This document shows positions 12,573-35,154 of a stretch of 60,998 nucleotides of DNA, in pieces. The notes beneath the pieces are model-generated. The model did not search any database. It was not told the DNA's origin and saw nothing but the letters and a program-made list of their open reading frames with translations. Origin of the DNA: Ectothiorhodospiraceae bacterium (lineage in GTDB: Bacteria; Pseudomonadota; Gammaproteobacteria; Nitrococcales; Aquisalimonadaceae); contig JAFIFU010000016.1 in assembly GCA_020831885.1 (NCBI GenBank), positions 1-60,998 on the forward strand. The letters are read 5' to 3'. The position numbers and the translations under genes were made by a program. The stretch's first letter is position 1. Every line of letters begins with the position of its first letter.

Positions 12573-12654
12573 TCGAGATCTCCTCCGCTTGATGTGTGGA
12601 CAAGCTCCGGCGCGGGGCTGCGGTCTGCCCCCGGTGTGTCCGTGTGCTCATGGG

Positions 12655-13824: not shown

Positions 13825-13946
13825 CAATCACTCCTTCGGGCCCTTCCCGTTACCGGCGAGGCTGCATGGAAGTGGCGGCCGGTCATACCCATGGCGGAAC
13901 GTTAGCAGGCACGAAAATCGGACGTCCAAGACGTATTTGCGACGAT

Positions 13947-13965: not shown

Positions 13966-14022
13966 ATGCTTATGTCGCCTTACAATGACAACGGACATCA
14001 CACGGGATCACGAGTACTGACC

Positions 14023-14949
14023 ATGACCATCAACCCGGTTTGGATCCGCAGATTCGTGGTGGTTGCGGAGGAGCGATCCTTCAGCGCCGCGGCCGCTCGC
14101 CTGCGCGTGGCCCAGCCATGGCTTTCGGTACAGATCCGCAAGCTCGAGAAGGAGCTCGGATTTCCTCTGTTTCGTCGCACCAGCCGGCATGTGGAACTCA
14201 CCGAGAACGGGCAGGCGCTCTTGCTTGAAGCCAGTGAATTCCTCAAGGCCAGCGAAAACCTGGACGCCGCCATCCGGGCCCTTCAGCACACCCAACAGCA
14301 GCAACTCCGCATCGGGATTCCGCCGTACGGTACGTTATTCGGGGTCTACCGGGAGATGGTTGAACGGTTTTCCCGTGCCCATCCGGAAGTCACCGTGGAG
14401 GTTGAGTACGGATGGACGCCGCAATTGCTGGAACGTCTGGATCACGGGGGCATCGACCTGGCCTTCGCCTTGGGCGCGGCCCAGAGGGCAGATCTCCTCG
14501 TGCAGTCGCTGGCTCCGGTGGAGCGCCTGTTGCTGCTGCCGGAAGACCACATACTGGCCTCCCTTGAGCGCGTCCCGGTGACGGCACTGGCAGACTGCAG
14601 GATTGCGGTGTTCCCGCGGGCGCTGAACCCGGGGCTATATGATGAGCTGTACACGCCTTTGCTCCGCCAGGGGGCCACGCCTGTTCCCGTTCCGCATTGG
14701 GACCGGAAAGCGCTCCGGAGATACCTGGTGCAGGACGGCTTGCTCTGGATTGGTCTGGGCGACAGCAGACGCGTGGGACACGTGTTCGGCGGCCTTGGTG
14801 TCACCGGGCGTGCCCTTGAGGGAGATCTGGACGCGATATCCTTTTCCATCATCCTCCCCCGACGCCGCCACGCGGGGCCGCTCAGGGATTTTGTCCATGT
14901 CAATCGGTCAAGATTGCGAGCGCTGATGGACACGGGGTTGGCCGGGTAA
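14023..14949 (+). CDS. LysR-family transcriptional regulator
   Basis: 308-aa LysR regulator. The winged helix lies in residues 1-62 (NPVWIRRFVVVAEERSFSAA, then RLRVAQPWLSVQIRKLEKEL and FRRTSRHVELTENG), and the inducer-binding domain starts about LRIGIPPYGTLFGVYREMVE. ATG 14023 (MTINPVWIRRF) matches the usual LysR N-terminus; an in-frame ATG 57 nt upstream would add a tail unusual for the family. It is divergent from the CoA-transferase/TAXI-TRAP module and probably controls it in response to the imported acid or its CoA ester (inference). Confidence 0.9.
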   Translation: MTINPVWIRRFVVVAEERSFSAAAARLRVAQPWLSVQIRKLEKELGFPLFRRTSRHVELTENGQALLLEASEFLKASENLDAAIRALQHTQQQQLRIGIPPYGTLFGVYREMVERFSRAHPEVTVEVEYGWTPQLLERLDHGGIDLAFALGAAQRADLLVQSLAPVERLLLLPEDHILASLERVPVTALADCRIAVFPRALNPGLYDELYTPLLRQGATPVPVPHWDRKALRRYLVQDGLLWIGLGDSRRVGHVFGGLGVTGRALEGDLDAISFSIILPRRRHAGPLRDFVHVNRSRLRALMDTGLAG

Positions 14950-15309: not shown

Positions 15310-16089
15310 CTATCCATACCTGAGTTTCCGCGCAAGTGCCCGTACCGGAGCCCCGTCGGATTCCAAAATATTCAAGGCATTCATCATCACCTCTACCCTG
15401 AGTCCTGTCAGGGGGGCGAGGTTGGTTAGATGCTCGGCGATCAGAACGCCGTTGGCGAGCAGCTTGCGGTGGACCGGATAGCAGAAGCTCTGCGTTCGAC
15501 GCTTTACGGCCTCGTCGGGCGTTGGCATGTCAACGCCTACCAGTTTGATCTGATGGTCGACTATCCACTGGGCACCGGCTTCGCTGAGAGCGGGGTGGTC
15601 ATCGTAACCCTCGCTCCCTGCACGCCTGTGTGTCCCGGTATTGAGGAGCAGGATGTCACCGGGTTTCAACAAGCGTTCGGCCGGCATTAGATGTTCCGGG
15701 CCAATGAGTCCGTCGCTGTTGACGCTCACGGGAAAAACCAGTCCGGCACCGCACAGCCGACTCAAGGGAATGTCCTGAAACGCTGGCCCATCATTGAAAA
15801 AATGGCGCGGGGAATCAACGTGTGTACCGGAATGCACGACCATGCTAATGGCCGTGACATTGATCTGGTGCTCCGGGATGGAATAGACGCGATCCAATAC
15901 GGGTTCGGGAAAAAAGGGCACCCTGGGGAGGTTTCGGCCGATCGGGTGCGAGAGGTCAAACCACTCCCCTTGCCCCTCTGTATCGGTCCACGTGTCCGGC
16001 GCACACCATCCACGCCAACCGACTCCACGAATCACATCAGGTTCGCACATGGTGCAAGCCGTCTTTGCCAAGAAGAGATGAAAATGCAT
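15310..16089 (-). CDS. Cyclase-family (kynurenine-formamidase-like) metal hydrolase
   Basis: 259-aa member of the cyclase/kynurenine formamidase superfamily. The metal-binding signature is HSGTHVDSPRHF, preceded by WFDLSHPIGRNLPRVPFFPE and followed by LLLNTGTHR and LVGVDMPTPDE. Known relatives hydrolyse amide or lactam bonds in rings and N-formyl groups, so a hydrolytic role on a cyclic intermediate is possible but unproven. It is the last gene of the leftward operon. From ATG 16089 it overlaps the preceding gene by 53 nt; an internal ATG at 16050 would cut the overlap to 14 nt, but neither has a strong ribosome-binding site. Confidence 0.8.
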   Translation of the reverse strand: MHFHLFLAKTACTMCEPDVIRGVGWRGWCAPDTWTDTEGQGEWFDLSHPIGRNLPRVPFFPEPVLDRVYSIPEHQINVTAISMVVHSGTHVDSPRHFFNDGPAFQDIPLSRLCGAGLVFPVSVNSDGLIGPEHLMPAERLLKPGDILLLNTGTHRRAGSEGYDDHPALSEAGAQWIVDHQIKLVGVDMPTPDEAVKRRTQSFCYPVHRKLLANGVLIAEHLTNLAPLTGLRVEVMMNALNILESDGAPVRALARKLRYG

Positions 16090-17419
16090 TGAAGTCGCAG
16101 CTTTCCATGCTTCTTATCATCGCCAGTAGCTTTTCTGTGCTTTCAGGCTTCATCACTCCGTCGACGTTGTCACGGAACTTGCGCTCCAGCTCCTCGCGGG
16201 TTAGCGGGTTCTGGGGATCGCCTTTCGGGTAAAGGAAAGTGGACTCCAACTGCCTGCCATCCTGCATGACAACGATCACCCGTGCCGGGAATTTGTCCGG
16301 ATAGAGCGGTGACAGCTCAGGGTCGACGGTCACCTCGACCTTATCAAGCAGGCGTAGAACGTCTTGGTCGGTGTATCGCTCCGGTCGAAACTGGCGTTGT
16401 GTAATCTCACCATCCACCAAGGCTGCAGCCACACAATACGGCACCGAGAGCCGTGCCGACATGCCATTCCGGACTTCCTTGCTGGAGAAGTGTGATTTCA
16501 CCGTGGCGTACGTCCGGATTTCAACCGATTCGATCGCCTTGGGGTCAAGCGATTCCCGTGAACGGATATCAAGCGACGCGCCGATTGGTGAATGACTGGC
16601 CAGTATGGACGGGTAGGGTTTGAAGCCGTTCTGGAGAATCTCCCAGTCGGTGCCAAGGCCATTGGTCAGTACGTGCGCCTTGGGTTCGTCACTGAACGCT
16701 GCGAGGTATCCCTTGGGGTGCCCCAGGATGTCCGGAGGGCTTGTGGCGCCGAGTTGCGTCAGGACAGCTGCGAGTACGCCGTTCAAGCCGGCTTTGCCGG
16801 GATGAACGCTCTTGGAGTCATCCCCGGATTCGAAAAAGGCATTCAACCCTGCCGCCTGGGTGCCGGCGAAGCCCAGACAGGTGCAGGTGTCTTCCGCACT
16901 GAGGGACAACGCCCTGGCGCTTGCGGCTGCGCTACCAAAGGTTCCGTTGGTGGCGGTTGAATGCCAGCATTTGTAGTGACTTGGCATAACCGCCATCCCC
17001 ACCCGGGTAGCCACCTCATAGCCCGCTACAAGGGCGACGAGCAGTTCGCGACCGCTGCGGCTTGAGGCCTCTGTACTGGCCAGCGCCGCAGGGACGACAA
17101 CAGAGCCCACATGGATCAGCGCGCGCTTGTGCGTATCGTCGTTGTCAGCCGCGTTGATGAGAATGCCGTTCGAAAGCGCTGCCAGGGCAGGATGGGCCCT
17201 GCCTCCACCGATAACTGTTGAAGGCCCTCCAGCCCCGAACTGCTGTGCGATCTCCGTTGCAATGCCCGCCTTCCGGCGATCTTCCTTGAACGCAGCCATT
17301 GCGCAACCAAGCGCATCAAGAAGTACGTCCTTGGCTTTGTCGATCACATTGGGGGGCAGGTCATCGAAGTCGAGTCCCGCAACGAACTCAGCAAGTTCCC
17401 TGGTCAGCGACTGTTGCAC
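16037..17419 (-). CDS. MmgE/PrpD-family protein
   Basis: 460-aa protein of the family that includes 2-methylcitrate dehydratase (PrpD) and cis-aconitate decarboxylase. Family features are the N-terminal VIDKAKDVLLDALGCAMAA, AADNDDTHKRALIHVGSVV, HSTATNGTFGSAAASARAL and a C-terminal domain with GFKPYPSILASHSPIGASLD. These enzymes dehydrate or decarboxylate branched tri- or dicarboxylates; the substrate here is unknown. It lies 41 nt downstream of the MaoC-like hydratase gene, a neighbourhood also found in the itaconate operon of Pseudomonas aeruginosa, though that operon's CitE-type lyase is missing here. Confidence 0.85.
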   Translation of the reverse strand: MQQSLTRELAEFVAGLDFDDLPPNVIDKAKDVLLDALGCAMAAFKEDRRKAGIATEIAQQFGAGGPSTVIGGGRAHPALAALSNGILINAADNDDTHKRALIHVGSVVVPAALASTEASSRSGRELLVALVAGYEVATRVGMAVMPSHYKCWHSTATNGTFGSAAASARALSLSAEDTCTCLGFAGTQAAGLNAFFESGDDSKSVHPGKAGLNGVLAAVLTQLGATSPPDILGHPKGYLAAFSDEPKAHVLTNGLGTDWEILQNGFKPYPSILASHSPIGASLDIRSRESLDPKAIESVEIRTYATVKSHFSSKEVRNGMSARLSVPYCVAAALVDGEITQRQFRPERYTDQDVLRLLDKVEVTVDPELSPLYPDKFPARVIVVMQDGRQLESTFLYPKGDPQNPLTREELERKFRDNVDGVMKPESTEKLLAMIRSMESCDFNAFSSLLGKDGLHHVRT

Positions 17420-17460
17420 TCTCTGTCTCCGGTGAACATTTCGAAAGGCGTTCCCGCCGA

Positions 17461-18291
17461 CTATTTCGCGGATCCCCGTAGCGCGACAGTGCCATCCTCT
17501 CGGGTTACCCAGAGCAGGGCGCCATCGCCGTCCACTCGGCCTGATGCGGTTACCTCAGTGCCCGAGAAAACAGGTGCCTGTGATCGGTATTCGAACCGGC
17601 TGAGCGGGCGCCCAAGATTCTCCTCGGCAAGGCCGAACATCAGCGTTGCGAGCAGAGGGCCATGAACGACAAGGCCTGGATAGCCTTCTTCATTGACGCA
17701 GTAGGGGTAGTCATAATGAATCCTGTGACTGTTATACGTGAGAGCCGAGTAGCGAAACAGCAGCAAGGAGTCCGGCTTCCAGTGTGAGCGCCATGTCCAT
17801 TGTTCTTCAGTCGCGCAGGGCGGAGCCGGCCGAGCGGCTCCGGCTCCGCCTTCTCTGTAGACGATGTCCTGTTCGTCGTCCAGCCGACCTCCGCGGTCTC
17901 CCCGCATCTGGTGCCGCACGGTCACGAAAACGAGCTTTCCGCTGCGCCCTTCTTTTACTGCCACGTCGGCGATCGTGGAACGGAGCCGAACATGTTCTCC
18001 AACCTGCAACGGGCAACTGACATTGATTCGACTGCCCGCCCACATTCTCTGAGGATCGCCCGGCAGCGCTGGTAGAAACTCCCCTAGGCGCTCGTGCCCG
18101 TCCGGGCCGGACGCGACAGCACGGTAGAGCGGTCGGAAGTACAGCCAATGCCAGCATGCGGCAAGCGGTGTCCCGTCTGCGGGGATTTCCGCGCTTCGAT
18201 CCAGGGCCGCGTTGAAAGCGGCTACGGGCCATGGGTCAATGCGCTCTTCACGATAACGCTCCAACCCCACCCACTGCTTCGGGTCCTGCAC
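17461..18291 (-). CDS. MaoC-like / FAS1-like dehydratase-domain hydratase
   Basis: 276-aa hotdog-fold hydratase. The N-terminal half (about 40-150) resembles the FAS1-like dehydratase domain (HWLYFRPLYRAVASGPDGHE, MWAGSRINVSCPLQVGEHV). The C-terminal half has the MaoC-type segment RYSALTYNSHRIHYDYPYC, with the expected His/Asp pair, then GYPGLVVHGPLLATLM. This architecture is shared by mesaconyl-C4-CoA and itaconyl-CoA hydratases, so hydration of a branched enoyl-CoA is likely, but the exact substrate is open. It lies 45 nt downstream of the quinone-oxidoreductase-like gene in the operon. Confidence 0.82.
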   Translation of the reverse strand: MQDPKQWVGLERYREERIDPWPVAAFNAALDRSAEIPADGTPLAACWHWLYFRPLYRAVASGPDGHERLGEFLPALPGDPQRMWAGSRINVSCPLQVGEHVRLRSTIADVAVKEGRSGKLVFVTVRHQMRGDRGGRLDDEQDIVYREGGAGAARPAPPCATEEQWTWRSHWKPDSLLLFRYSALTYNSHRIHYDYPYCVNEEGYPGLVVHGPLLATLMFGLAEENLGRPLSRFEYRSQAPVFSGTEVTASGRVDGDGALLWVTREDGTVALRGSAK

Positions 18292-18336
18292 GGTTAGTTC
18301 CTTTTTCTGGCAACCAGAACGCGTCGATTTGATTCC

Positions 18337-19341
18337 CTAGCGGGCGCCGGTGATGGCAAGTATGGCTTTGCCGCTCACCTTCCCAGCCCGGACGTCCTCA
18401 AGCACGGAAGCGAACTCCTCGAGCGGAGAGACGCGATCGATATGTGGCCTCAGGCCACCGTTTCGGTACAGCTCGTACAGGTGTTCCTGCGCAGCGCGTA
18501 CCAAACCTGGTGTTCGATCCCGGTAATCGCTCCACTGCAGGCCCAGTACAGCGATGTTCTTGACCAGCAGATAATTGGAACGAATCGCGGGAATCTCTCC
18601 CGCTGCGAAGCCGATCACGACAAGCCGCCCGCACCAGGCCAGCGCGCGAAGGCTTGCTTCGAGTATGGATCCGCCGACGGGGTCTACGACGATATCCACA
18701 CCATGATTGTTTGTGACATCGAATACCTGCTGGCGCAGCAGGTCCCGGATTGGATCGGCCGTGAGGTCGATGATGTGATCGGCTCCATTGGCACGTGCGA
18801 TTTCCGCCTGCTGTTCGTTGATCACGCCGGCTAATGCTGTCCCGTTCAATGCCTTGACCAACTGTATTGCTGCCAAGCCGACTCCGCCAGCGGCACCATT
18901 CACAAGCACGCTGTTCCCTTCTCGGAATCCCGCTCGCTCGAGCAGCGCAAAGTGCGCCGTCTGATAACTTAGCCCGATGGCCGCAGCGTCTGCGAACGGC
19001 ATCGAATCGGGGATGCGGTAGCAACTGTCCCCCGGCGCGATTACCGCTTCTGAGTACGCACCAAATTCCACCTGTGCGGCGACGCGATCACCGGGCTTGA
19101 GGTCTTGTACGGCTGCTCCGACCTTTGCAACCGTGCCGGCGACTTCCTTACCCGGAGAAAACGGCAGCGGCGGTTTGATCTGGTAGCTACCTTCCATGAC
19201 CAGGATATCCGGAAAGTTCACTTCCGCCGCAGCGCCATGTATCAGGACTTCGTCGGGGCCGGGAGATGACGGCGAGATTTCCTCGACCCGGGCGTTCTCG
19301 ATCGGGCCGAATTCTCTGACAATCACCGCGCGCATCGGCAT
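18337..19341 (-). CDS. Zinc-independent MDR, NADPH:quinone oxidoreductase-like
   Basis: 334-aa medium-chain dehydrogenase/reductase of the quinone oxidoreductase group, without a structural zinc cysteine cluster. It shows VIVREFGPIENARVEEI, EVNFPDILVMEGSYQIKPPL, PFSPGKEVAGTVAKVG and the NADPH-binding stretch NGAAGGVGLAAIQLVKALNG. In a CoA-thioester catabolic operon such enzymes can act as enoyl reductases or on electrophilic ketones; the role here is inferred only from position. Two ATGs (19341 and 19335) are possible starts; CGAGG lies at a suitable distance from the first. Confidence 0.88.
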   Translation of the reverse strand: MPMRAVIVREFGPIENARVEEISPSSPGPDEVLIHGAAAEVNFPDILVMEGSYQIKPPLPFSPGKEVAGTVAKVGAAVQDLKPGDRVAAQVEFGAYSEAVIAPGDSCYRIPDSMPFADAAAIGLSYQTAHFALLERAGFREGNSVLVNGAAGGVGLAAIQLVKALNGTALAGVINEQQAEIARANGADHIIDLTADPIRDLLRQQVFDVTNNHGVDIVVDPVGGSILEASLRALAWCGRLVVIGFAAGEIPAIRSNYLLVKNIAVLGLQWSDYRDRTPGLVRAAQEHLYELYRNGGLRPHIDRVSPLEEFASVLEDVRAGKVSGKAILAITGAR

Positions 19342-19359
19342 GCTGATACCTCGGGTTGA

Positions 19360-20487
19360 TTAGCTGGATGGCTTGGCAACAAGGTCGTTATCCCTGCCCA
19401 ACGGGGGGTAAGACGCAGACGTTCCGGTTTGCGCGCGGAAAACCGGCGCAAGCGGGACGGGCAAAGCGTCAATCTGTTTGCCGTCATCACTTTCGAGTTG
19501 ACGGTCAAACAGGCGTCGGCTCTGAAAATGGGGGTTGGCCAGCGCCTCCTGAAGCGTCGCAACGATGCTGCAGCAGACATCAACCCCCTGGAATTTTTCT
19601 TGCCAGTAGGCTGCCGGCCTCCGTCGGATGCGCTCTGCGACAGCAGCGATTGCTTCCTTCGGGTTGGCTGTCTCACTGCGATGGGCTTCCGGCAAATCGA
19701 TCAGCCAACAGAAGTTGTCCCAGAACTTCTGTTCCAGCGGCGCAGCCGCCACAAACCGGTCATCAGCTGTCCGGTAGATCTGGTATCGGGGGGAGCCGCC
19801 TGTGACCAACTCATTCCCGGGACGAGGCCATTGATCATGCGCCTTGGCCTCCCCGAGGGCCCAGTACATGAACGGAAACAGGCCATCCGACATGGAGATA
19901 TCCAGATGATTTCCTTCGCCCGTGCGGTCCCGCTGGTGCAGCGCCAGCAGAATATTCATGACGGCCGGGTATGTGCCTCCGCCGATATCGGCGATCAATG
20001 CCGGAGGCGGGATGGGGGCGCCGTCCGCTCCGGCGCTCAGTCCCAACAGGCCGGTTTCGGCGATGTAGTTGAGGTCGTGAGCCGCAACAGCGGCGTTCGG
20101 GCCGGACTGTCCATACCCGGTGATGGAGCAGTAGATCAGGCCTGGATTGATCTCACGCAATTGCGGATATCCCAGACCGAGACGATCCATAACCCCGGGC
20201 CGAAACTGTTCGATCAGAACATCAGCTTCCCGGAGAAGCGGCATCAGTTGGTTGATGCTTTCCGAATCCTTCAGATCCAGGGCAAGACTCTTCTTGCCAC
20301 GATTGAGCAGTGCGAAATTCACACTGTCCTGCCCGAACTTCGGGACATAGCTGCGCATTTCGTCCCCGCGCCCCGGGCGCTCGATCTTGATGACGTCGGC
20401 ACCGGCCTCGGCCAGGATCAGGCTTGCCATCGGCCCAGGTAGCAGAGTGCTGAAATCCAGTACCTTCAGGTCCTCCAGCGGCCTCAT
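19360..20487 (-). CDS. Alpha-methylacyl-CoA racemase-like CaiB/BaiF protein
   Basis: 375-aa class III CoA-transferase-fold protein. It resembles the alpha-methylacyl-CoA racemase branch: SITGYGQSGPNAAVAAHDLN, YIAETGLLGLSAG and PPALIADIGGGTYPAVMNIL. His137 and Asp167 are 30 residues apart, the same spacing as the catalytic His/Asp pair of mycobacterial racemase MCR. A racemase would fit a substrate with a branch next to the thioester, converting it to the enantiomer that a dehydrogenase accepts. Its ATG overlaps the stop of the upstream gene (TGA/ATG), so translation is coupled. A true CoA-transferase role cannot be excluded. Confidence 0.82.
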   Translation of the reverse strand: MRPLEDLKVLDFSTLLPGPMASLILAEAGADVIKIERPGRGDEMRSYVPKFGQDSVNFALLNRGKKSLALDLKDSESINQLMPLLREADVLIEQFRPGVMDRLGLGYPQLREINPGLIYCSITGYGQSGPNAAVAAHDLNYIAETGLLGLSAGADGAPIPPPALIADIGGGTYPAVMNILLALHQRDRTGEGNHLDISMSDGLFPFMYWALGEAKAHDQWPRPGNELVTGGSPRYQIYRTADDRFVAAAPLEQKFWDNFCWLIDLPEAHRSETANPKEAIAAVAERIRRRPAAYWQEKFQGVDVCCSIVATLQEALANPHFQSRRLFDRQLESDDGKQIDALPVPLAPVFRAQTGTSASYPPLGRDNDLVAKPSS

Positions 20488-21146
20488 GTCGTTCCTCCGT
20501 CGCGCTGCCGACGCTGATGCGCTGCTACAGCACGCCTTGCTGGTGCATATGCGCGCCCGCCGTAAACCTCAAACAGGGCCCGCGTCACTTCGTAGTGGTG
20601 TTCCAGCCCCGAGCGTTCCAGCAGGCTGATGGGGCCCTCCGGATAGCCGAGCCCAAGCTTGAGCGTCAGATCCAGGTCGTCAGCCGAGGCGAGGCGCTCA
20701 TCGAGCCGCCGCAACGCCTCGTTGTAATAGGGCCGAACAAGCTGATCGATGATTCGGCCAGCGAAATCTCCACAAACCGCGACATCCAGACCCGCGTTCT
20801 CAAACAGCGTTACGGCGGTCCGGATAGCGGATTCGTCAGAGTTCGGCTGCCGCACCAGTTCAACCAGATCTGACGGTGCATCCTCACCGAGCCGGAATCG
20901 GGAGAATCCAAGAACGTTCGAACCTTCTTCACCCCGGCTTTCGCCTGTGTGGCCGCCCAGCGTGTCGGTATATAACTCGACCAGGATCACCGCTTTGCTG
21001 TCGGTGTCCGGAATGTCGGCCAGCCGTGCTCCTGCGTCCGGGCCCACCAGAACCTGAATGTCCGCATCGTCGCTTGCGCTGGCGAGAAAGGCACTCCCCT
21101 CCGGGAATGAACGGCTTGTGCCAGTAGAAATCACGGAATACTGCAT
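20484..21146 (-). CDS. Partial 3-hydroxyacyl-CoA dehydrogenase-like protein (C-terminal domain with degenerate N-terminus)
   Basis: 220-aa protein. Its C-terminal ~100 residues match the 3-hydroxyacyl-CoA dehydrogenase C-terminal domain (DFAGRIIDQLVRPYYNEALR, then DLDLTLKLGLGYPEGPISLL). The N-terminal half lacks a GxGxxG nucleotide loop and only loosely recalls the Rossmann domain (SNVLGFSRFRLGEDAPSDLV). It probably partners the complete dehydrogenase encoded 4 nt upstream rather than acting alone (inference). The start is ATG 21146 with GGAGG upstream; the longer open frame is rejected because it would overlap the upstream gene extensively. Confidence 0.78.
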   Translation of the reverse strand: MQYSVISTGTSRSFPEGSAFLASASDDADIQVLVGPDAGARLADIPDTDSKAVILVELYTDTLGGHTGESRGEEGSNVLGFSRFRLGEDAPSDLVELVRQPNSDESAIRTAVTLFENAGLDVAVCGDFAGRIIDQLVRPYYNEALRRLDERLASADDLDLTLKLGLGYPEGPISLLERSGLEHHYEVTRALFEVYGGRAYAPARRAVAAHQRRQRDGGTT

Positions 21147-21150
21147 GCGC

Positions 21151-22026
21151 TTAGCCTCCGAACATCGCATCGCGGTCATAGGTGTAGAAGCCTTGGCCGG
21201 TTTTCCGGCCCAGGCGCCCGGCGGCAACCATCCGCTTGAGCAACGGAGGACACGCGGCACGCGGATCATTGGTAACGGCATGGAAGGCCTCGCAGAGGCG
21301 AATCTGCGTATCGAGGCCAATCATGTCGAGCAATTCGCAGGGCCCCATGGGGTAACCCAGGCCCTTCTTGATTGCGCGGTCCAGATCGGCTGGCTCCGCC
21401 ACTCCGGACTCGATCAGCCTGATCGCGTCGTTGTTAAACGGCACCAGGAAGTAGTTCAGAATGAACCCCGGCGTATCCTGGGTCTTCACTGGTTGCTGCC
21501 CCAATGCTTCGCAGAAGGCCCATGCCGTGTGGAAGGTCTCTTCAGAAGTGTTCAGTCCCGGAGACATTTCCACCAGTTTCATCACCTGGGCAGGTAGGCA
21601 GAAGTGCATCCCGACCACGCGGTCATCGCGGTTCGATCCGCCGGCAATCTCGCTGATGGAGAGCGTCGACGTGTTGGAGGCGAAGATAGTGTGTTCCGGG
21701 CAGATCTCATCGAGTTGACTCATCAGGTCGTGCTTGACGCCCAGGTCCTCGAAAACGGCCTCGATGACGAGGTCGCACTGTCCCAGCGCCCCCAACTCCG
21801 TTGTGTTCTGCATGCGCTGCAGGGCCTGCTCCTTCTGCTCCTCAGTCAGCTTGCCCTTGGTTACCGACCTGGAGAAGAAGCCCTCGGTCTGTTTCCTCGC
21901 TTTCGCGAGGGTGTCCTGGTTGAGGTCAAACAGCACAGTGTCGAACCCGGCGCGGGCCACCACGATCGCGATCCCGGCGCCCATGGTGCCGGCGCCGGCG
22001 ACGCCCACGGTTTTGATCTTGCTCAT
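21151..22026 (-). CDS. 3-hydroxyacyl-CoA dehydrogenase
   Basis: 291-aa NAD-dependent dehydrogenase oxidising 3-hydroxyacyl-CoA to 3-ketoacyl-CoA in beta-oxidation. The Rossmann loop is GVAGAGTMGAG (residues 8-18). The catalytic region reads GMHFCLPAQVMKLVEM, with His141 and Glu153 present. The Asn usual after the His (HFxNP) is Leu here. The C-terminal domain has DTPGFILNYFLVPFNNDAIR and LDRAIKKGLGYPMGPCELLD. ATG 22026 has AGGAG at good spacing and the stop of the acyl-CoA dehydrogenase gene is 10 nt upstream of it. It probably acts on the ring-opened chain. Confidence 0.92.
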   Translation of the reverse strand: MSKIKTVGVAGAGTMGAGIAIVVARAGFDTVLFDLNQDTLAKARKQTEGFFSRSVTKGKLTEEQKEQALQRMQNTTELGALGQCDLVIEAVFEDLGVKHDLMSQLDEICPEHTIFASNTSTLSISEIAGGSNRDDRVVGMHFCLPAQVMKLVEMSPGLNTSEETFHTAWAFCEALGQQPVKTQDTPGFILNYFLVPFNNDAIRLIESGVAEPADLDRAIKKGLGYPMGPCELLDMIGLDTQIRLCEAFHAVTNDPRAACPPLLKRMVAAGRLGRKTGQGFYTYDRDAMFGG

Positions 22027-22036
22027 CGTTTTGCTC

Positions 22037-23203
22037 CTAACGCTGAAGGAAGCTGCGGCCAATCAACTGGCGGTGAATCTGGTTCGTACCTTCCCAGATC
22101 TGGGTAAGCTTGGCGTCACGCATCAGCCGCTCCACCCTGTAATCGCGGCAATAGCCGTATCCGCCATGCAGTTGGACGGCGTCCGTGGTGACGCGCATGG
22201 CGAGATCGGACGCACGTTGCTTGGCGATGGAAGCCTCGATGGAGAAATCCTCGGCGCCGGAGTCCACCAGGCGTGCGACATGCCAGAGCCAGTTCTCGCA
22301 GAGTGCGAGTTCGGTTGCCAGGTCGGCAACCATGAACTGCACGCCCTGGAACTCGAGGACCTTGCGACCACCTTGTTCGCGTTCGTTGATGTAGGCAACG
22401 GCGTCGTCGAAGGCAGCCTTGGCGATCCCCAGGGCTTGGGCAGCGACGCTCGGTCGTGACTTGTTCAGGGATGCAAGCAGGATAGGCAGCCCGTCGCCGG
22501 GTTCGCATATCAGGTTTGCCCGCGGAACGCGGCAATTGTCGAAGGAAAGCGTTGCCGTGCTGGAGGCGCGATGCCCCATCTTGTCTTCCTTGCGCAACAC
22601 CTGCAGGCCAGGCGTGCCCTTCTCGATGATCAGCGCGGAGATCGCCCGCTTGGGGTCATCAATCTCGGACCACTTCCCGAACACCAGATACAGGTCAGCC
22701 ACGTCGCCGGAAGTGATGAACGTCTTCCCGCCATTGATGACAATGTGGTCGCCGTCGGGAATGAACTGGGTCCGCATGCCCGTCGCATTGGAGCCGGCTG
22801 AAGGTTCTGTGATGCACAGGGACGCAAGCCCGCCATCCAGCATGGTTGGCAGAAAGCGTCTGCGTTGTTCCTCGGTTCCGAAGTCGATCAGTGGCTTGAT
22901 TGCATGGAAATTCGTTGCCCAGATCACCCCGGTGGAGGCGCAAGCCTTGCTGATCTCAATGACGCAATGGAGGTAGGCGGCGTAGGAGAGTCCGGCCCCA
23001 CCGTGCTCCTCGGGGATGAAGATTCCGTTCAATCCAATGTCGTTGAGCAGGCGTACGTTCTCCCAGGGAAATTCGTTGCGCTCGTCATAGCCTGCTGCAC
23101 GTGGCTTGAACTCCTTCTCAGCGATCTCAACCACGGTTTTCACGATCTCCGCTTCCTCGGGTGCAAGGGCGTCAAGCGGGCCGATCCGATCAAGCATGTT
23201 CAT
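22037..23203 (-). CDS. Acyl-CoA dehydrogenase
   Basis: 388-aa FAD flavoprotein that introduces an alpha-beta double bond into an acyl-CoA and passes electrons to ETF. Features: GIFIPEEHGGAGLSYAAYLH, LCITEPSAGSNATGMRTQF, GGKTFITSGDVADLYLVFGK, RASSTATLSFDNCRVPRAN and the C-terminal LTQIWEGTNQIHRQLIGRS, with the catalytic Glu in IWEGTNQ. Within a ring-opening operon its most economical role is the AliB-like oxidation of an alicyclic acyl-CoA to the 1-ene (inference); a straight-chain role in later beta-oxidation is also possible. It lies 26 nt downstream of the SDR gene. Confidence 0.93.
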   Translation of the reverse strand: MNMLDRIGPLDALAPEEAEIVKTVVEIAEKEFKPRAAGYDERNEFPWENVRLLNDIGLNGIFIPEEHGGAGLSYAAYLHCVIEISKACASTGVIWATNFHAIKPLIDFGTEEQRRRFLPTMLDGGLASLCITEPSAGSNATGMRTQFIPDGDHIVINGGKTFITSGDVADLYLVFGKWSEIDDPKRAISALIIEKGTPGLQVLRKEDKMGHRASSTATLSFDNCRVPRANLICEPGDGLPILLASLNKSRPSVAAQALGIAKAAFDDAVAYINEREQGGRKVLEFQGVQFMVADLATELALCENWLWHVARLVDSGAEDFSIEASIAKQRASDLAMRVTTDAVQLHGGYGYCRDYRVERLMRDAKLTQIWEGTNQIHRQLIGRSFLQR

Positions 23204-23228
23204 GTGCGCTCCAGTTCAAAGATTGCGG

Positions 23229-23972
23229 CTACAGGGTGACGCCCTGTCCGCCATCGACGTAGATGGTCTCCCCTGTCAGGAACGGCATGTTCTCGACAAA
23301 GACTGCTCCAACGAGTTGACCGATTTCATCTGGTTGGGCGGCCCGCTGAACGGGAATCCGGGAACGCAGGTAACGCTGGAATTTTTCCTGCTCCAGGTAT
23401 TCCCTGTTCAGATCGGTCGCCACGAACCCTGGCGCCACGTTCACCACGCGAATTCCATCCCGCGCCCACTCCACTGCCAGACAGCGCGACACCGCGCCGA
23501 CAGCGGCTTTCGAGGCACAGTAGGCGGCATTGCCTGGAACCCCCGAACGGTCGTAGAACGATCCAATGTTGACGATCATTCCGCCCGAGGCTTTCAGGTA
23601 CGGATAGGCGAGCTGCGAAACCCTGAAGGGGCCGATCACGTTGGTGTGCAGCACCTTGTCGAAGTCCTCGGCCGGGAACTCGGTGCTGGGTCCGTCAAGG
23701 TGAATACCCGCGTTGTTCACCAGGCCGTCTATCTGGCCATGTGCCTCTGCGATGGTCGCTAGCGTTTTTTCCATGCCGCTTGCATCGGTGACATCTCCCG
23801 CATAGGCATGGATGCGCCCCGCGAAATCGGACGGCACCTGAACGTCTTCAACCCCGTGGCCCTTTCGGCTGATGCAGGCGACCTGGAAACCACGCCCTGC
23901 GAGGTTCCGGACAATGGAAGACCCTATGCCGCGGCTGCCACCTGTGACGACTATGCACTTGGATTCATTCAT
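23229..23972 (-). CDS. Short-chain dehydrogenase/reductase
   Basis: 247-aa classical SDR. NAD(P) motif VTGGSRGIGSSIVRNLAGRG, structural NNAG in GLVNNAGIHLDGPST, catalytic Ser in NIGSFYDRSG and Tyr/Lys in AAYCASKAAVGAVSR. By context it is the candidate for oxidising a ring 2-hydroxyacyl-CoA to the 2-ketoacyl-CoA, the BadH step before ring hydrolysis; overall similarity to BadH is only at family level. Its ATG sits just past the stop of the enoyl-CoA hydratase gene, so the two are translationally close. Confidence 0.9.
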   Translation of the reverse strand: MNESKCIVVTGGSRGIGSSIVRNLAGRGFQVACISRKGHGVEDVQVPSDFAGRIHAYAGDVTDASGMEKTLATIAEAHGQIDGLVNNAGIHLDGPSTEFPAEDFDKVLHTNVIGPFRVSQLAYPYLKASGGMIVNIGSFYDRSGVPGNAAYCASKAAVGAVSRCLAVEWARDGIRVVNVAPGFVATDLNREYLEQEKFQRYLRSRIPVQRAAQPDEIGQLVGAVFVENMPFLTGETIYVDGGQGVTL

Positions 23973-23973
23973 G

Positions 23974-24747
23974 TCACGCGTCCTTAAAATCCGGTTTCCG
24001 CTTTTCCGCGAATGCGCTCATGCCCTCCGCAGCATCCGATGTCTGATAGGCCAGCGTGGAGAGATCCGCCTCTATCCTCAGCCCGTCATGCACGGGCACA
24101 TCCAGTGCCCGCTGTACAGCTTCTCGTGCAAACCCCAGGGAGAGCAGGCTGAAACCGGAGAACTCCCGGGCGAACGCGACGCCCGCCTGCAGTGGGTCGG
24201 CTTCCGGTTCCAGCAACCGGTTGACCAGGCCAACGCGCTCCGCTTCCTCCGGCCTGACGGCGCGTCCGGTCATGATCAGTTCCAACGCTCGTGCCTCCCC
24301 AATAAGCCGGGGCAAACGCTGTGTGCCGCCATAGCCGGGAATCAGGCCCAACTTGATCTCGGGTAGCCCGAGCCGCGCATCCGAGGCGGCTACGCGGAAG
24401 GTACATGCCATCGCCAGCTCCAGCCCTCCGCCAAAGGCGTAGCCATTAATGATCGCAACCGACGGAATGGGGAGCATCGCCAGTTTCTGAAAAACACGTT
24501 GACCGAACTCGGCACCGCGCTTCTGGTCGATCAGCTTCCGGTTCATCAGCTCCTTGATATCAGCGCCAGCGCAGAATGCCTTGCCCCCGGCGCCAATGAT
24601 CAGCAGTGCACGGGCATCACCTTCGGCGACCCTGTCGAACGCCTGATCCAGATCGCGTAGAATGTCGAAGCTGAGCGCGTTCAGCGCTTCGGGTCGATTC
24701 AACCGAAGAACGGCAAATTCGTCGTGGCGTTCGAGCTCAACCGTCAT
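23974..24747 (-). CDS. Enoyl-CoA hydratase (crotonase fold)
   Basis: 257-aa crotonase. The oxyanion loop reads KAFCAGADIKELMNRK. Both catalytic glutamates are present: Glu110 in GGGLELAMACTFRVAAS and Glu130 in LGLPEIKLGLIPGYGGTQRL, so a genuine hydratase is expected. In the operon it fits hydration of a ring enoyl-CoA (BadK-like step) or of a chain intermediate. The start is ATG 24747 with AAGGAGAC upstream; it overlaps the end of the ligase gene by 11 nt, indicating coupled translation. A longer open frame upstream is rejected for lack of homology. Confidence 0.91.
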   Translation of the reverse strand: MTVELERHDEFAVLRLNRPEALNALSFDILRDLDQAFDRVAEGDARALLIIGAGGKAFCAGADIKELMNRKLIDQKRGAEFGQRVFQKLAMLPIPSVAIINGYAFGGGLELAMACTFRVAASDARLGLPEIKLGLIPGYGGTQRLPRLIGEARALELIMTGRAVRPEEAERVGLVNRLLEPEADPLQAGVAFAREFSGFSLLSLGFAREAVQRALDVPVHDGLRIEADLSTLAYQTSDAAEGMSAFAEKRKPDFKDA

Positions 24748-26428
24748 TGTTTGTCTCCTTTCGATTCTTCGGGCTAACCCACCGCACCGGTTCAGGCCGC
24801 ACGGTTCCGTCACGAACCCAGTCAACGAGACGTCGCTTGAGAATCTTGCCGCTGGCCGTCATGGGGAATTCGTCCAGGCGGATGAAGTACTCTGGCATGT
24901 CGTATTTCGATAAGCCCTGTTCGTGCAGGAACTTCAGCATCTCCTGGGATGTGACCTTCTGTCCGTCCAAGGGGAGTACAGCCAGGCAGACCTTTTCACC
25001 CAGACGTTCGTCCGCAACCGGAATGGCCGCGACCGCATTGGCGGCGGGGTGACGAATTGCCAGTCCTTCGATGTTCGTCGGGTGAATGTTGTGGCCTCCA
25101 CGAATGATGAGATCCTTCTTTCGGCCAACGATTTGCAGGCACCCCTTCTCATCCAACTGGCCGAGATCCCCGCTGAGAAACCAGCCATCCCGATTGAAAG
25201 AGCGCTCCGTGGCGAACTGGTTGTCGTAGTAGCCCAGCATCAGCAGGGCGCCCCGGCTGCCGATTTCCCCGACTTCGCCAACGCCTAGCCTTTGATCCGG
25301 CGCCTCCGCGTCGAATATCGCCACCTCAAATCCTGTACAGGCACGTCCACAGGTGGACACGATGGTGTCGACGTCGTCATCGGGAAGGGTGTACTGGTGC
25401 GAGCCGTTCTCGGTCATCCCGTACACGTTCTGGGGGCGGATACCCAATTCCAGAAAACGTTCCGCAACCGAGCGCGGAATGGGGGATCCCGCCATGTAGA
25501 AGGTCTTGACGCAGCCAAGACGGTCCACGTTTCGCCGCTTCAACTCCGACAGAATATCCATCGCATGGGTCGGCACCCCCATCACGTAGGTCGCTCGGGT
25601 TTCCTCGATACGGTCAACGGGAGACTGGCCTCGCCTTATGTCGTTGATGACCAGCTCGCAGCCGCCGACCATCGCCTGGGACAGCGCAACGGTTCCGATG
25701 TGGTGGCTCAGGGGGCTTAGCGTGTAGAGCACCGTGCTGCTGTCCAGCGCCCAGTCCTGAACCATTGCCCGGCCATTAGCAAGCAAGGTGTTGTCGCTGT
25801 GCATCACGCCCTTTGGTTCACCAGTAGTACCGGAGGTGAATGCCAGGTACGTGATCTTGTCCGGGTTGGAGTCAGCCGCAGGAAGTCGGGCGGGATCACC
25901 AGTGCCGCCGAAGGCCTGGAAACGCAGACCGTGCGGCCCCCGCCCTTCGTCGCCGAGAGCCACGGCACGACGCATGAAGGATAGCTCCTCAGCGACGTCG
26001 AAGACGCTGTTGACCGTTGCGTCGGCACCATATCCCGGCTTCGCGAACAGCACTGCGGTCTGCAAACGTTCCAGGCACCGCACGATCTCCGCAACCGTGT
26101 GATTCTGGTGCAGCGACGGGTTGGCGACATAGCCGTTCCGGGAGCAGGCAAGAAAGATCACCACCGATTCCACACAGTTGGGAAGCCACACTGATACCCG
26201 GTCGCCGGGCTCGACGCCCAGTTCATGCAGGTCGCTGGCCAACTGATCCACCGCGGCGAGTAGCTGTGCATAGCTCAAGCGCCGGCTGCCGTCCTGCACG
26301 GCCCAACCATCGGGCTGCTCGGTCGCATGGCGCCGCATCAGGGAGTAGAAGGTGTCCCCCCGCCAGTAGCCGCTGGCGTGGTATTCCGTGGCGACGGCCG
26401 GATTATGAAGTGTCAGCAGTGGCTTCAT
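24737..26428 (-). CDS. AMP-forming acyl-CoA ligase, possibly alicyclic-acid-CoA ligase
   Basis: 563-aa adenylate-forming ligase making an acyl-CoA from a carboxylic acid, ATP and CoA. Motifs: TYLAFTSGTTGEPKGVMHSD (P-loop), VYGMTENGSHQYTLPDDDVD, FNRDGWFLSGDLGQLDEKG, VGRKKDLIIRGGHNIHPTNI and the C-terminal TASGKILKRRL with the catalytic Lys. The N-terminal SLMRRHATEQPDGWAVQDG and ACSRNGYVANPSLHQNHTV recall cyclohexanecarboxylate-CoA ligase-type enzymes. That substrate assignment is an inference from context. ATG 26428 is preferred (GGAGAGG, 6 nt upstream) over the in-frame ATG 21 nt earlier. Confidence 0.9.
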   Translation of the reverse strand: MKPLLTLHNPAVATEYHASGYWRGDTFYSLMRRHATEQPDGWAVQDGSRRLSYAQLLAAVDQLASDLHELGVEPGDRVSVWLPNCVESVVIFLACSRNGYVANPSLHQNHTVAEIVRCLERLQTAVLFAKPGYGADATVNSVFDVAEELSFMRRAVALGDEGRGPHGLRFQAFGGTGDPARLPAADSNPDKITYLAFTSGTTGEPKGVMHSDNTLLANGRAMVQDWALDSSTVLYTLSPLSHHIGTVALSQAMVGGCELVINDIRRGQSPVDRIEETRATYVMGVPTHAMDILSELKRRNVDRLGCVKTFYMAGSPIPRSVAERFLELGIRPQNVYGMTENGSHQYTLPDDDVDTIVSTCGRACTGFEVAIFDAEAPDQRLGVGEVGEIGSRGALLMLGYYDNQFATERSFNRDGWFLSGDLGQLDEKGCLQIVGRKKDLIIRGGHNIHPTNIEGLAIRHPAANAVAAIPVADERLGEKVCLAVLPLDGQKVTSQEMLKFLHEQGLSKYDMPEYFIRLDEFPMTASGKILKRRLVDWVRDGTVRPEPVRWVSPKNRKETNNDG

Positions 26429-26451
26429 GATAGCCTCTCCAAGATTCAACC

Positions 26452-27231
26452 CTATTTCCCGAACTTGCTCGCGTCAGGGGTGCGTCGTTCGGCGAAGGCG
26501 GCTGAGAGTTCCTGAGATTCTTCGGTCTTCAGATACGTGCGCAGAAGCAGGTCATGCGCCATGCGCGCAAGCCCCCCGACGCCGCCATGGCGGGCATTGA
26601 AGGCGGCTTTCAGGGAAGCCAGTGCGAAGCTGCCACGGTCGGCGACAGTCAGAGCGAACTCCGTGGTGGCGTCAGCCAGCTCCGCATCGGGCACGACCTT
26701 GTTAATTAGACCGATGTCCAGGGCCTCGGCGGCGGTCAGCTTTGCGTTGGTGAACCACATTTCCTTGGCCTTCTTCTTCCCGATCAGGTCCTCCAGATAC
26801 CAGGTCCCAAAGCCGGCGTCGAAGCTACCCATCATCGGGCCAACCTGGCGGAAGACCGCGCTTTCCTTGGCGATGGTCATGTCACAGACGACCTGCAGGA
26901 CGTTTCCGCCACCCACGGCAAAGCCGTTTACGGAGGCGATGACTGGTTTCTGGATGCGTTCGATAGCTTCGTACATTTCCAGCGTGGGCAACACGCCGGC
27001 ATAGAGCGTCGTGTCCTCCATACCCTCCTTGCGGCCACCGATGCAGAAAAACTTTTCACCGGCTCCGGTCAGGACGACAACCCGGGTACGCGTTTCCCGG
27101 CCCACAGTGTCCAGGCAGTGGCGGATCTCCTGGCACATTTCAGGCGTGAACATGTTGCCGTCGTCCGGACGGTTCAGGGTGATCCGGGCGATGGGGCCGT
27201 CTTCCTGGTAGATGATGCTGTTGTAATCCAT
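26452..27231 (-). CDS. BadI/MenB-type ring-opening hydrolase (2-ketocyclohexanecarboxyl-CoA hydrolase-like)
   Basis: 259-aa crotonase-superfamily protein of the BadI/MenB branch. BadI hydrolytically opens a 2-ketocyclohexane ring thioester by a reverse Dieckmann reaction, giving pimelyl-CoA. Branch-specific signs: FFCIGGRKEG (FCxGG rather than FCAGAD), AVGGGNVLQVVCDMTIAKES, VFRQVGPMMGSFDAGFGTWY and GKKKAKEMWFTN. Ser136 and Asp138 match the conserved Ser/Asp pair of BadI and MenB, and no crotonase-type Glu pair exists, so it should not be a simple hydratase. Tyr233 sits near the usual C-terminal Tyr but appears shifted by one residue. MenB function is unlikely because no menaquinone genes are nearby. 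Confidence 0.85.
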   Translation of the reverse strand: MDYNSIIYQEDGPIARITLNRPDDGNMFTPEMCQEIRHCLDTVGRETRTRVVVLTGAGEKFFCIGGRKEGMEDTTLYAGVLPTLEMYEAIERIQKPVIASVNGFAVGGGNVLQVVCDMTIAKESAVFRQVGPMMGSFDAGFGTWYLEDLIGKKKAKEMWFTNAKLTAAEALDIGLINKVVPDAELADATTEFALTVADRGSFALASLKAAFNARHGGVGGLARMAHDLLLRTYLKTEESQELSAAFAERRTPDASKFGK

Positions 27232-27255
27232 GGAAATCTCCTTGCCTGTGGGGAA

Positions 27256-28485
27256 TTATTCGATGGCGCCTTCGTCTCTCAGTCCGTCGATGTCGTCGGC
27301 GCTGTAGCCGAGCTCAGCGAGGATTTCCCGGGTGTGCTCACCCAGGCGGGGAGGGAGGCTCCGAAGCGTCTCGGCACTTCCGTCCAAGTGATACGCGGAT
27401 CCAACCTGCGGGACTGCCGCGCTTCCGTCGCGTACAGAATAGAAAAGCCCCCGTTCCATCAGATGATGGTCGGCGACGACTTCGTCCAACCTGTTGATGG
27501 GTCCGGCGGGAATCCCTGCGTCACGAAAGCGGGTGAGCCAGTATTCGCGCGGCTTCTCGATAAGAATGTCCTGAATGCGGGAAACGATGGCCGCCCTGGC
27601 CTGGCGGCGTTTCGCATTTGTCGCCGTGTCTTTCTTTTCTCCCAGCTCCGGCTGCCCGACCGTGTGCCAGAAGCGTTTCCAGATGCTGTCGTTGCCGAGG
27701 CCCAGTGTCAGCGGGAGATCGGCAGTATCGAATGCCTGATAGATGGCGATGACGCTGTCGCGTCCGCCGCTGCGTCGCGGCACTTCCCCGGATCCGAGGT
27801 ACGACATGATGCGCGGCGCAAGAAACCGGGTCATGCTGCCGACCAGCGACACGTCAACCTTGTGGCCCTTGCCGGTGCGCGCGGTGTCAAAAATGGCCCC
27901 AAGCGTGGCGATTGCCGCATCCGACGCGGCAATCATGTCGGCGGCTGGCGCGCCGATCTTCTGCGGCTCCCCGTCGGCTTCTCCCGTGAGGTCCATGATG
28001 CCGCTGTAGCCTTCGGCTATCAGGTCGTAGCACGTCCAGTCCGCGCGCTCTCCTGTCAGACCGAAGCCGGTAATGGAGACATAGATAAGCTTCGGGTTGA
28101 TCTTCGACAGCGTATCGTAGTCGATCCTCAGCTTCTTCTGTGTGCGGAGAACGTTGTTCAGCACCACGACGTCGGCCTTGGCAATGAGCTTTTCCAGGAC
28201 CTCCCGGCCCGGCTCGGTGGTGAAGTCCAGGGCAATGCTTTTCTTGTTCCTGTTGACGCTGAGAAACCACAATGACTCGCCGTCCAGCTCCGGCGGAAGC
28301 CAGTGTCGGGCATCATCGCCCCCGCCCGTGCGCTCCACCTTGATCACGTCCGCTCCCATATCAGCGAGCAGCATTGCTGCGAAGGGTCCCGCAATAGAAG
28401 TGGTCAGATCGACCACGCGCACGCCCCGCAGCCATTGAATACCTTCACCACACTGTCGTTGCGGGAGTTTCTCAAAAGGCAGCAT
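27256..28485 (-). CDS. Class III (CaiB/BaiF) CoA-transferase, first gene of the catabolic operon
   Basis: 409-aa family III CoA-transferase: LRGVRVVDLTTSIAGPFAAM, GADVIKVERTGGGDDARHW, NRNKKSIALDFTTEPGRE, SITGFGLTGERADWTCYD and APAADMIAASDAAIATLG, with probable catalytic Asp183. It may activate the imported acid using CoA from a downstream product, in parallel to the ligase (inference). ATG 28485 is chosen (GGGGAT upstream); the frame is open 10 codons further, to about the predicted transcription start. It lies about 30 nt downstream of the start predicted from the sigma-54 promoter at 28529-28543. Confidence 0.9.
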   Translation of the reverse strand: MLPFEKLPQRQCGEGIQWLRGVRVVDLTTSIAGPFAAMLLADMGADVIKVERTGGGDDARHWLPPELDGESLWFLSVNRNKKSIALDFTTEPGREVLEKLIAKADVVVLNNVLRTQKKLRIDYDTLSKINPKLIYVSITGFGLTGERADWTCYDLIAEGYSGIMDLTGEADGEPQKIGAPAADMIAASDAAIATLGAIFDTARTGKGHKVDVSLVGSMTRFLAPRIMSYLGSGEVPRRSGGRDSVIAIYQAFDTADLPLTLGLGNDSIWKRFWHTVGQPELGEKKDTATNAKRRQARAAIVSRIQDILIEKPREYWLTRFRDAGIPAGPINRLDEVVADHHLMERGLFYSVRDGSAAVPQVGSAYHLDGSAETLRSLPPRLGEHTREILAELGYSADDIDGLRDEGAIE

Positions 28486-28527: not shown

Positions 28528-28543
28528 AGCAAACGGCGTGCCT
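28528..28543 (-). promoter_or_regulatory. Sigma-54 (-24/-12) promoter of the catabolic operon
   Basis: On the minus strand the sequence reads AGGCACG-CCGT-TTGCT, matching the consensus TGGCACG-N4-TTGCA at 10 of 12 fixed positions, with the invariant GG (28541-28542) and GC (28529-28530) separated by exactly 10 nt. Transcription would start near 28517, upstream of the ATG at 28485. It is divergent from a gene for a GAFTGA-containing sigma-54 activator. Confidence 0.8.
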
Positions 28544-28649: not shown

Positions 28650-28750
28650 CGTAAACAGATAGCGTCCTATGCATGTGCCGATCGTCTCGGCTGACTTGGA
28701 CGTACAGGATGCTGCTTATGGAACCGAACCCGTCCAGGGAGAAGCAATCC

Positions 28751-31388: not shown

Positions 31389-31458
31389 TCAGTGCCCGTG
31401 CTGGTCTTCCAGGCCACAGATGACGCAAAGCTAGACGATCTCGATGGAGGAGAATCAA

Positions 31459-35145: not shown

Positions 35146-35154
35146 GGGGGGCCC

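Follow-up and report, generated by a model that had tools for sequence, protein, structure and literature searches.

Positions 1–60,998 of contig JAFIFU010000016.1 from an Ectothiorhodospiraceae bacterium (assembly GCA_020831885.1), referred to below as the window, carry a 13-gene operon on the minus strand (15310–28485) and, divergent from it, genes for a σ54 activator and an ATP-binding cassette (ABC) transporter. We read the stretch from 15310 to 36180 as a σ54-controlled regulon for the uptake and coenzyme A (CoA)-dependent opening of a substituted cyclic carboxylic acid, in which the opening would fall to an undescribed branch of hydrolases, and we put the probability of this reading at roughly 0.6. 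More tentatively, the BadI-like protein of the operon may found a third functional class of the MenB/BadI group, in which a shared Tyr was lost and an Arg and a His were gained. With a CoA-transferase, a racemase and a split dehydrogenase as partners, it would then make up a mobile route, often under a σ54 switch, for alicyclic acids that are substituted or dicarboxylic (e.g. terpenoid or naphthenic), a pathway so far unassigned. We found no description of the operon in the open-licence literature, as far as its accessible text goes.

All thirteen open reading frames (ORFs) were confirmed on the minus strand. The preliminary description of this DNA had reported thirteen tightly packed leftward genes with overlaps, and this was borne out by spacings of −11 to 45 nucleotides (nt) for genes 1–12: with plausible starts they are, from gene 1 to gene 12, 24, 23, −11, 1, 25, 10, 4, −4, 18, 45, and 41 nt. 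Gene 1 starts with an ATG at 28485, and a purine-rich stretch lies ahead of most of the operon starts. For gene 13, a start at 16089 gives an overlap with gene 12, and a start at 15921 (the choice of the codon-model gene caller) leaves a 115-nt gap. We favour the overlap because the alignment with a relative of gene 13 in another genome (locus L066) already begins at residue 8 of the long form.

Profile search also confirmed that a ligase, an acyl-CoA dehydrogenase, an enoyl-CoA hydratase, a short-chain dehydrogenase (SDR), and a BadI/MenB-type hydrolase lie in one operon. Gene 1 (27256–28485) encodes CaiB1, a putative family III CoA-transferase, gene 2 (26452–27231) the BadI-like hydrolase, gene 3 (24737–26428) an acyl-CoA ligase with matches to AMP-forming ligase families, and gene 6 (22037–23203) the acyl-CoA dehydrogenase. 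The hydratase (gene 4, 23974–24747) and the SDR (gene 5, 23229–23972) were identified from profiles and relatives. Genes 7 (21151–22026) and 8 (20484–21146) correspond to the N-terminal and C-terminal parts of a PaaH-type 3-hydroxyacyl-CoA dehydrogenase, gene 9 (19360–20487) encodes CaiB2, which resembles alpha-methylacyl-CoA racemases, and gene 10 (18337–19341) encodes a quinone-oxidoreductase-like reductase of the medium-chain dehydrogenase/reductase type (205.8 bits against TIGR02824, cut-off 296.8).

We then scanned 84,980 species genomes, which yielded 175 stretches coding for relatives of gene 2, and kept the best 80. Core genes were counted in the 41 loci that reach 20 kb (the thirty-nine shorter ones were left out), and a gene was scored as present, wherever in the locus it lay, if its identity exceeded a set value. 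The BadI-like gene was the query and is present in 41/41 by construction. The dehydrogenase occurs in forty of these long loci, the SDR in thirty-seven, the two 3-hydroxyacyl-CoA dehydrogenase parts in thirty-six each, the ligase in thirty-five, the hydratase in thirty-four, CaiB1 in thirty, CaiB2 in twenty-nine, and the reductase in twenty-one. All ten core genes are found in thirteen loci, nine in eleven, eight in five, seven in five, six in two, five in four, and three in one. The thirteen complete loci are all from Pseudomonadota by title, and the three myxococcal loci hold reduced sets. The ten-gene core also lies in order on plasmids of Cupriavidus basilensis, Burkholderia multivorans, Aminobacter, and Achromobacter (gene 1 of the Aminobacter copy was found by tblastn), and plasmids of Rhodococcus and Streptomyces carry hydrolases that are 53–54 per cent identical, in partly similar clusters. 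The Cupriavidus plasmid (pRK1-1, strain DSM 11853) also has the divergent activator and was matched at two places, perhaps through a second copy. Because distant genomes share the gene set and, to a large extent, the gene order, the operon is not a chance grouping.

The protein of gene 2 scored 214.8 bits against the badI model (NCBIfam TIGR03210, cut-off 467.6) and 227.7 bits against the menB model (NCBIfam TIGR01929, cut-off 342.7), and its best solved match is MenB. In a maximum likelihood tree of thirty-eight rows, it belongs to a clade of twenty-nine (support 100/100) that is separate from the BadI side (five rows, support 99/98) and from MenB (three rows). Long branches lead to the outgroup and to the clade itself, the program warned that such branches meet, and the bootstrap had not settled. 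The tree is therefore used only for the separation of the three groups, and neither its root nor the order within the clade enters the argument.

Across the eighty-five members of this branch, 122 of 259 positions hold one letter in at least 97 per cent, which amounts to a strong constraint across Myxococcota, Bradyrhizobium, and Alteromonas. In the alignment, the Ser and Asp of the GSFDAG/GSVDPG stretch are common to gene 2, MenB, and BadI. In eighteen columns where the BadI-side and MenB rows hardly vary, at least 95 per cent of the clade shares a residue that none of those rows shows; among these are Arg128 (beside the GPMMGSFDAG stretch), His226, and Leu234. Leu234 replaces the second Tyr in a C-terminal YY pair. 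This Tyr, which we take to be Tyr258 of E. coli MenB, is present in 5/5 BadI-side and 3/3 MenB rows; the first Tyr of the pair is invariant in the branch (85/85), where a single-residue insertion precedes it by two places. Thus one part of the catalytic stretch is retained in the branch and another is altered. No function described for it was found in the accessible text of the open-licence literature. The next crotonase in the window's genome is only 34 per cent identical to gene 2, so there is no closer second copy. The group is easily overlooked because plasmid records say merely 'enoyl-CoA hydratase-related': among the best plasmid records, sixteen of the seventeen relatives of gene 2 have this label and the remaining one has no annotation.

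These comparisons also bear on whether the operon serves menaquinone biosynthesis or naphthoquinone breakdown around a relative of MenB (1,4-dihydroxy-2-naphthoyl-CoA synthase). The menB score and the rank of MenB as best solved relative would fit such a role. We nonetheless regard it as very improbable, as the menB cut-off is missed, gene 2 falls outside the MenB rows and has Leu for the conserved Tyr, and the operon contains no other men gene. A menaquinone role was rejected on the cut-off, the tree, and the lack of other men genes.

The preliminary description had compared the operon with the bad-ali route, in which AliA, AliB, BadK, BadH, and BadI convert cyclohexanecarboxylate to pimelyl-CoA. 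In Rhodopseudomonas palustris and Aromatoleum sp. CIB, the bad-ali cluster likewise combines a ligase, an acyl-CoA dehydrogenase, a hydratase, an SDR, and a MenB/BadI-type hydrolase (PMC9795900, from the accessible text). The likeness to these five proteins is one of enzyme class. Profile searches of the ligase, dehydrogenase, and hydrolase against AliA, AliB, and BadI, which the preliminary description had named as a check, all gave scores far below the cut-offs. The ligase scored 299.9 bits against aliA (TIGR03208, cut-off 792.3), and the dehydrogenase 162.3 bits against aliB (TIGR03207, cut-off 575.35) and 290.5 bits against the cyclohexane-1-carbonyl-CoA dehydrogenase model (cut-off 650). 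The best model for the ligase is a medium-chain fatty-acid ligase, with the cyclohexanecarboxylate ligase model third; the best for the dehydrogenase is acryloyl-CoA reductase, with the cyclohexane-1-carbonyl-CoA dehydrogenase model third; all of these scores are under the cut-offs. As to a grouping with straight-chain fatty acid or menaquinone enzymes, the hydrolase does not fall with the latter, and the best models of the ligase and dehydrogenase leave the point undecided.

Identities to the annotated bad-ali proteins of two plasmids are 44–45 per cent for badI and 29–31 per cent for both aliA and aliB. Over about 190 residues, gene 5 shows 29.7–31.2 per cent identity to the SDR adjacent to an annotated badI, and no BadH model is among the 25 models listed of 235 families. 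Both plasmid sets include a MarR gene and are arranged as SDR-badI-aliB-aliA, and neither feature is seen in the window operon. None of its thirteen genes encodes a MarR-type repressor (BadR); the divergent regulator is a σ54 activator, where the available text on bad-ali gives a MarR-type repressor, and the next regulator is of LysR type. The window also adds a CoA-transferase, a racemase-like protein, a split PaaH, a reductase, and a transporter. By the curated models and the tree, its proteins do not count as orthologues of the bad-ali proteins, and membership of the bad-ali set was rejected on the model cut-offs, the separate hydrolase clade, and the identities of 29–45 per cent. It is accordingly unlikely that the operon is the known pathway in diverged form with extra genes. 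All five enzyme classes in one operon, the Ser and Asp of gene 2, the third rank of the aliA and cyclohexane-1-carbonyl-CoA dehydrogenase models, and the aerobic operation of bad-ali (PMC9795900, accessible text) would suit that explanation; the badI, aliA, and aliB scores, the separate clade, and the missing MarR gene and gene order do not.

CoA-dependent breakdown of a cyclic acid, perhaps with a branched or substituted ring, stays the best reading of what the preliminary description had proposed, while the specific bad-ali route does not hold beyond the match in enzyme classes. The racemase residues of CaiB2 favour a branched substrate. The MaoC-like, PrpD-like, and cyclase-like genes, which had been offered as further hints of a substituted ring, lie outside the conserved unit.

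The two CaiB proteins probably differ in type, one transferase-like and the other racemase-like. CaiB1 aligns with dicarboxylate-type transferases, nearest to those for glutarate and hydroxymethylglutarate (PDB matches 4ed9, 10uh, and 9br7; 298.6 bits against the NCBIfam model SucGlutTfsCaiB, cut-off 750), and its Asp183 is found in 50/50 cluster members, window included. In PDB searches, CaiB2 scored 191.5 bits against 2g04 (a fatty-acid-CoA racemase), 187.8 against 10uh (formyl-CoA transferase), and 178.8 against 1x74 (the alpha-methylacyl-CoA racemase MCR), and its best NCBIfam model is CoA:oxalate CoA-transferase (173.0 bits, cut-off 522). Its His137, Asp167, and Glu252 align to the racemase positions of 2g04 and 1x74 and occur in 47/47 members (those of at least 300 amino acids, window included, from a cluster of 48 with a few copies outside the operon). 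We take these three residues to have the catalytic roles of their counterparts in alpha-methylacyl-CoA racemases. Genes 7 and 8 seem to be a single PaaH-type enzyme split in two: they cover positions 3–291 and 376–491 of the same 507-position model, and six ORFs of 442–504 amino acids in relatives, all in one cluster, span both.

The divergent activator gene (28673–30379, plus strand) encodes a bacterial enhancer-binding protein (bEBP) with a weak PAS match, Sigma54_activat and HTH_8 domains, and both the GAFTGA and Walker A motifs, and the window's genome has one RpoN. We predicted a σ54 promoter, AGGCACGCCGTTTGCT (28528–28543, minus strand), 42 nt 5′ of gene 1, and a second, TGGCACAGACTTCGCA (31373–31388, plus strand), 5′ of the transporter genes. 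Each is one mismatch from TGGCACN5TTGCW and has counterparts in relatives. The transporter, identified by profile search, comprises a substrate-binding protein (Peripla_BP_6, 31444–32688) and two ATP-binding proteins with two permeases of the branched-chain-amino-acid/urea type (32698–36180), all on the plus strand.

We compared the promoter regions of eighty-six loci (L006–L091), with searched regions that vary in length between loci; six came under neither test, including L038 and L039, in which activator and operon are separated by another gene. With a divergent activator, 25/28 loci have a −24/−12 site with at most one mismatch 5′ of the first operon gene, and 27/28 have one with at most two, the miss being L069. 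In a shuffle test of these twenty-seven loci, at most 3.5 per cent of 200 shuffles of the same stretch matched as well. Where no divergent activator was found, 6/52 loci have a σ54 site, and in one of these six, L056, an activator gene lies on the opposite strand. A σ54 site also lies 5′ of 7/9 binding-protein genes. The link between σ54 and the operon is new here, and the predicted promoter is supported by its position and conservation. In L038 (7196–8611) and L039 (7197–8612), from Pseudooceanicola and Oceanicola, the gene between activator and operon is an extra rpoN, recognized by Pfam in L038 and, for L039, by its place in the same sequence cluster.

What the sequences show directly is the gene content and its conservation, the separate branch of the hydrolase, the racemase-type residues, and the recurrence of the promoter. 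The scheme that we propose, including each reaction, the order of steps, the ring opening, the effector, and the substrate class, is drawn from sequence comparison. The activator at 28673 would sense the substrate, a substituted alicyclic carboxylic acid, or an early intermediate, and turn on two promoters, that of the ABC transporter genes and that of the 13-gene operon. The transporter would bring in the acid, which either the ligase (gene 3) or the transferase (gene 1) would then convert to its CoA thioester. The acyl-CoA could then be desaturated (gene 6), hydrated (gene 4), and oxidized to a beta-keto acyl-CoA (gene 5). Gene 2 would cut the C–C bond of this beta-keto thioester with water, which would open the ring and leave a dicarboxylic mono-thioester. 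CaiB1 may move CoA between the carboxyls, and CaiB2 may invert an alpha-alkyl stereocentre. Genes 7 and 8 would serve beta-oxidation of the open chain, to be finished by thiolases coded elsewhere in the genome, which has twenty-two thiolase matches. Genes 11–13 could be a local add-on for a branched dicarboxylate.

Several observations weigh against this scheme. The position of the second YY Tyr is Leu in 82/85 branch members (Met in two and Tyr in one), for which reason the hydrolase may act on something else. Four of the enzymes (ligase, dehydrogenase, hydratase, SDR) are of generic kinds and suit open chains equally. CaiB2 is not separable from transferases by score alone, so its assignment as a racemase rests on the three residues. 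Eleven of the forty-one long loci lack CaiB1, twelve lack CaiB2, and twenty lack the reductase. One-mismatch σ54 sites show no excess over chance in the 61-kb window (three found, 2.5 expected, the third inside a permease gene), and the promoter evidence is therefore comparative. Finally, the activator was found in only 15/41 long loci, the binding protein in six, and the ATPase and permeases in one, so many copies of the operon must be controlled otherwise; the σ54 switch and the ABC transporter are not universal parts of it.

The chief rival explanation is that gene 2 acts as a hydrolase on a beta-keto acyl-CoA of open-chain or side-chain type, and that the operon degrades a branched chain or a larger molecule's side chain without opening a ring. 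The Leu in place of the shared Tyr and the seventeen other clade-specific columns are consistent with this, as are the racemase-type residues and the PaaH-type dehydrogenase, which suit branched and dicarboxylic chains. The operon has no thiolase, so hydrolysis could stand in for thiolysis. On the other hand, MenB and BadI, the nearest relatives, both act on a ring-forming or ring-opening bond, and the Aminobacter copy has a thiolase adjoining the operon. We consider this explanation a minority prospect, with about double the weight of a diverged bad-ali pathway, and retain the opening of a substituted ring as the better account.

Among described systems, the mrc genes for monoterpene ring cleavage in Castellaniella defragrans likewise include a proposed BadHIK-like opening of a substituted ring. 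MrcE, the hydrolase of that set, is 88 per cent identical to an Azoarcus BadI (PMC4109377, accessible text) and presumably belongs to the BadI side, whereas the window hydrolase is on a separate branch. The chcpca cluster of Rhodococcus aetherivorans BCP1 is a bad/ali-like set induced by cyclohexane- and cyclopentanecarboxylate, with a hydrolase annotated as naphthoate synthase; it has TetR-like regulators, and its gene table shows no CaiB or racemase (PMC5906575, as far as the accessible text goes). In the thn operon of the naphthalene-degrading culture N47, a CoA-transferase shifts CoA between the two carboxyls of a ring-opened acid, as we propose for CaiB1. That enzyme, ThnP, is a family I transferase and CaiB1 is family III, and thn is an anaerobic and different cluster (PMC11659651, accessible portion). 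Genes for the aerobic breakdown of alicyclic acids, naphthenic and terpenoid ones included, have so far been poorly assigned. A conserved operon with a recognizable key enzyme, and in some carriers its own switch and uptake system, offers a handle on them. The activator and its promoter could serve in a search for the inducing substrate. The gene 2 hydrolase is a new comparison point for MenB versus BadI.

The low guanine-plus-cytosine (GC) content, the flanking genes, and the patchy distribution indicate that the operon unit was acquired by transfer. GC content is 0.603 in the operon and 0.58 in the activator and transporter genes, compared with 0.642 for the genome (pooled sampled stretches) and 0.638–0.648 at the window ends. 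The right flank holds IS21-like genes, an AcrB-type efflux pump, and then glmS-, glmU-, and ATP-synthase-like genes. At E thresholds of 1e-60 for its family (14 genomes) and 1e-95 for a sample of its class (369 genomes), the window's own genome was in each case the only one with the operon hydrolase, which makes vertical inheritance unlikely. No 16S gene was found in the window's assembly; an ATP synthase subunit is 73–78 per cent identical to those of six genomes with gamma- or betaproteobacterial titles and 60–64 per cent to those of five alphaproteobacterial or myxococcal ones, which places the host with the former. An IS21-type element with transposase- and IstB-like genes (40565–42833) lies at the right edge of the low-GC stretch. 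On a Rhodococcus opacus plasmid (L089, 5421–12774), two small and two further CoA-transferase genes, a hydratase, and two dehydrogenases accompany a 53 per cent identical BadI-like gene.

Genes 11–13, all on the minus strand, are a local addition. Gene 11 (17461–18291) encodes a MaoC-type hydratase like itaconyl-CoA hydratase (PDB 8khg, E 7e-53), gene 12 (16037–17419) a member of the MmgE/PrpD family whose nearest solved relatives are IRG1/cis-aconitate decarboxylases and IDS-epimerase, and gene 13 (15310–16089) a PF04199 hydrolase ('cyclase') with the motif HSGTHVDSPRH. Gene 11 has no relative in the fetched loci at E 1e-8, gene 12 has relatives over 50 per cent identical only in L066 and L019, and gene 13 has one relative, in L066. 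With relatives in 0, 2, and 1 of the forty-one long loci, respectively, these genes were rejected as core members. The likeness of gene 11 to itaconyl-CoA hydratase and of gene 12 to IRG1-type cis-aconitate decarboxylases is a lead, no more, towards a branched dicarboxylate of C5 type.

The neighbours of the operon in other genomes gave no common hint of a substrate: arylmalonate-decarboxylase-like, hydantoinase, molybdenum hydroxylase, glucose–methanol–choline (GMC) oxidoreductase, and thiamine pyrophosphate (TPP) enzyme genes were seen in one to nine loci each. A conserved block ahead of the operon in three to four loci (L015, L019, L030, and L032) was discarded as a substrate clue, as it consists of housekeeping EngA-, HflX-, HflK/C-, histidyl-tRNA-synthetase-, and adenylosuccinate-synthetase-like genes. 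One gene cluster is represented 3′ of the operon in L059 (12206–12970) and eight other loci, and its L059 member is of the arylmalonate-decarboxylase/Asp-Glu-racemase family.

Between the activator and the transporter genes lies a 209-amino-acid ORF (30561–31190, plus strand), a distant relative of small DUF4286-like proteins with weak matches in other loci; it has no Pfam match and was not called by the codon-model gene caller. Relatives of this ORF and a DUF4286-like family seeded from L023, with weak similarity to the window ORF, touch eighteen loci near the operon, and L023 and L035 each have two stretches matching DUF4286-like or related proteins. Directly 3′ of the transporter genes, an inverted repeat (36186–36246) with 26 perfectly complementary nt and a 9-nt loop is possibly a terminator. 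On the other side of the operon, a LysR regulator gene (13966–14949) adjoins another gene of the CaiB family, accompanied by genes for an NMT1-like binding protein and a DctM-type transporter (9321–13827). A separate, catabolic-looking module at 37545–40439 includes an FCD regulator, a member of the carboxymuconolactone decarboxylase family, a hydroxyisobutyrate-dehydrogenase-like protein, and a protein of the metallo-beta-lactamase fold.

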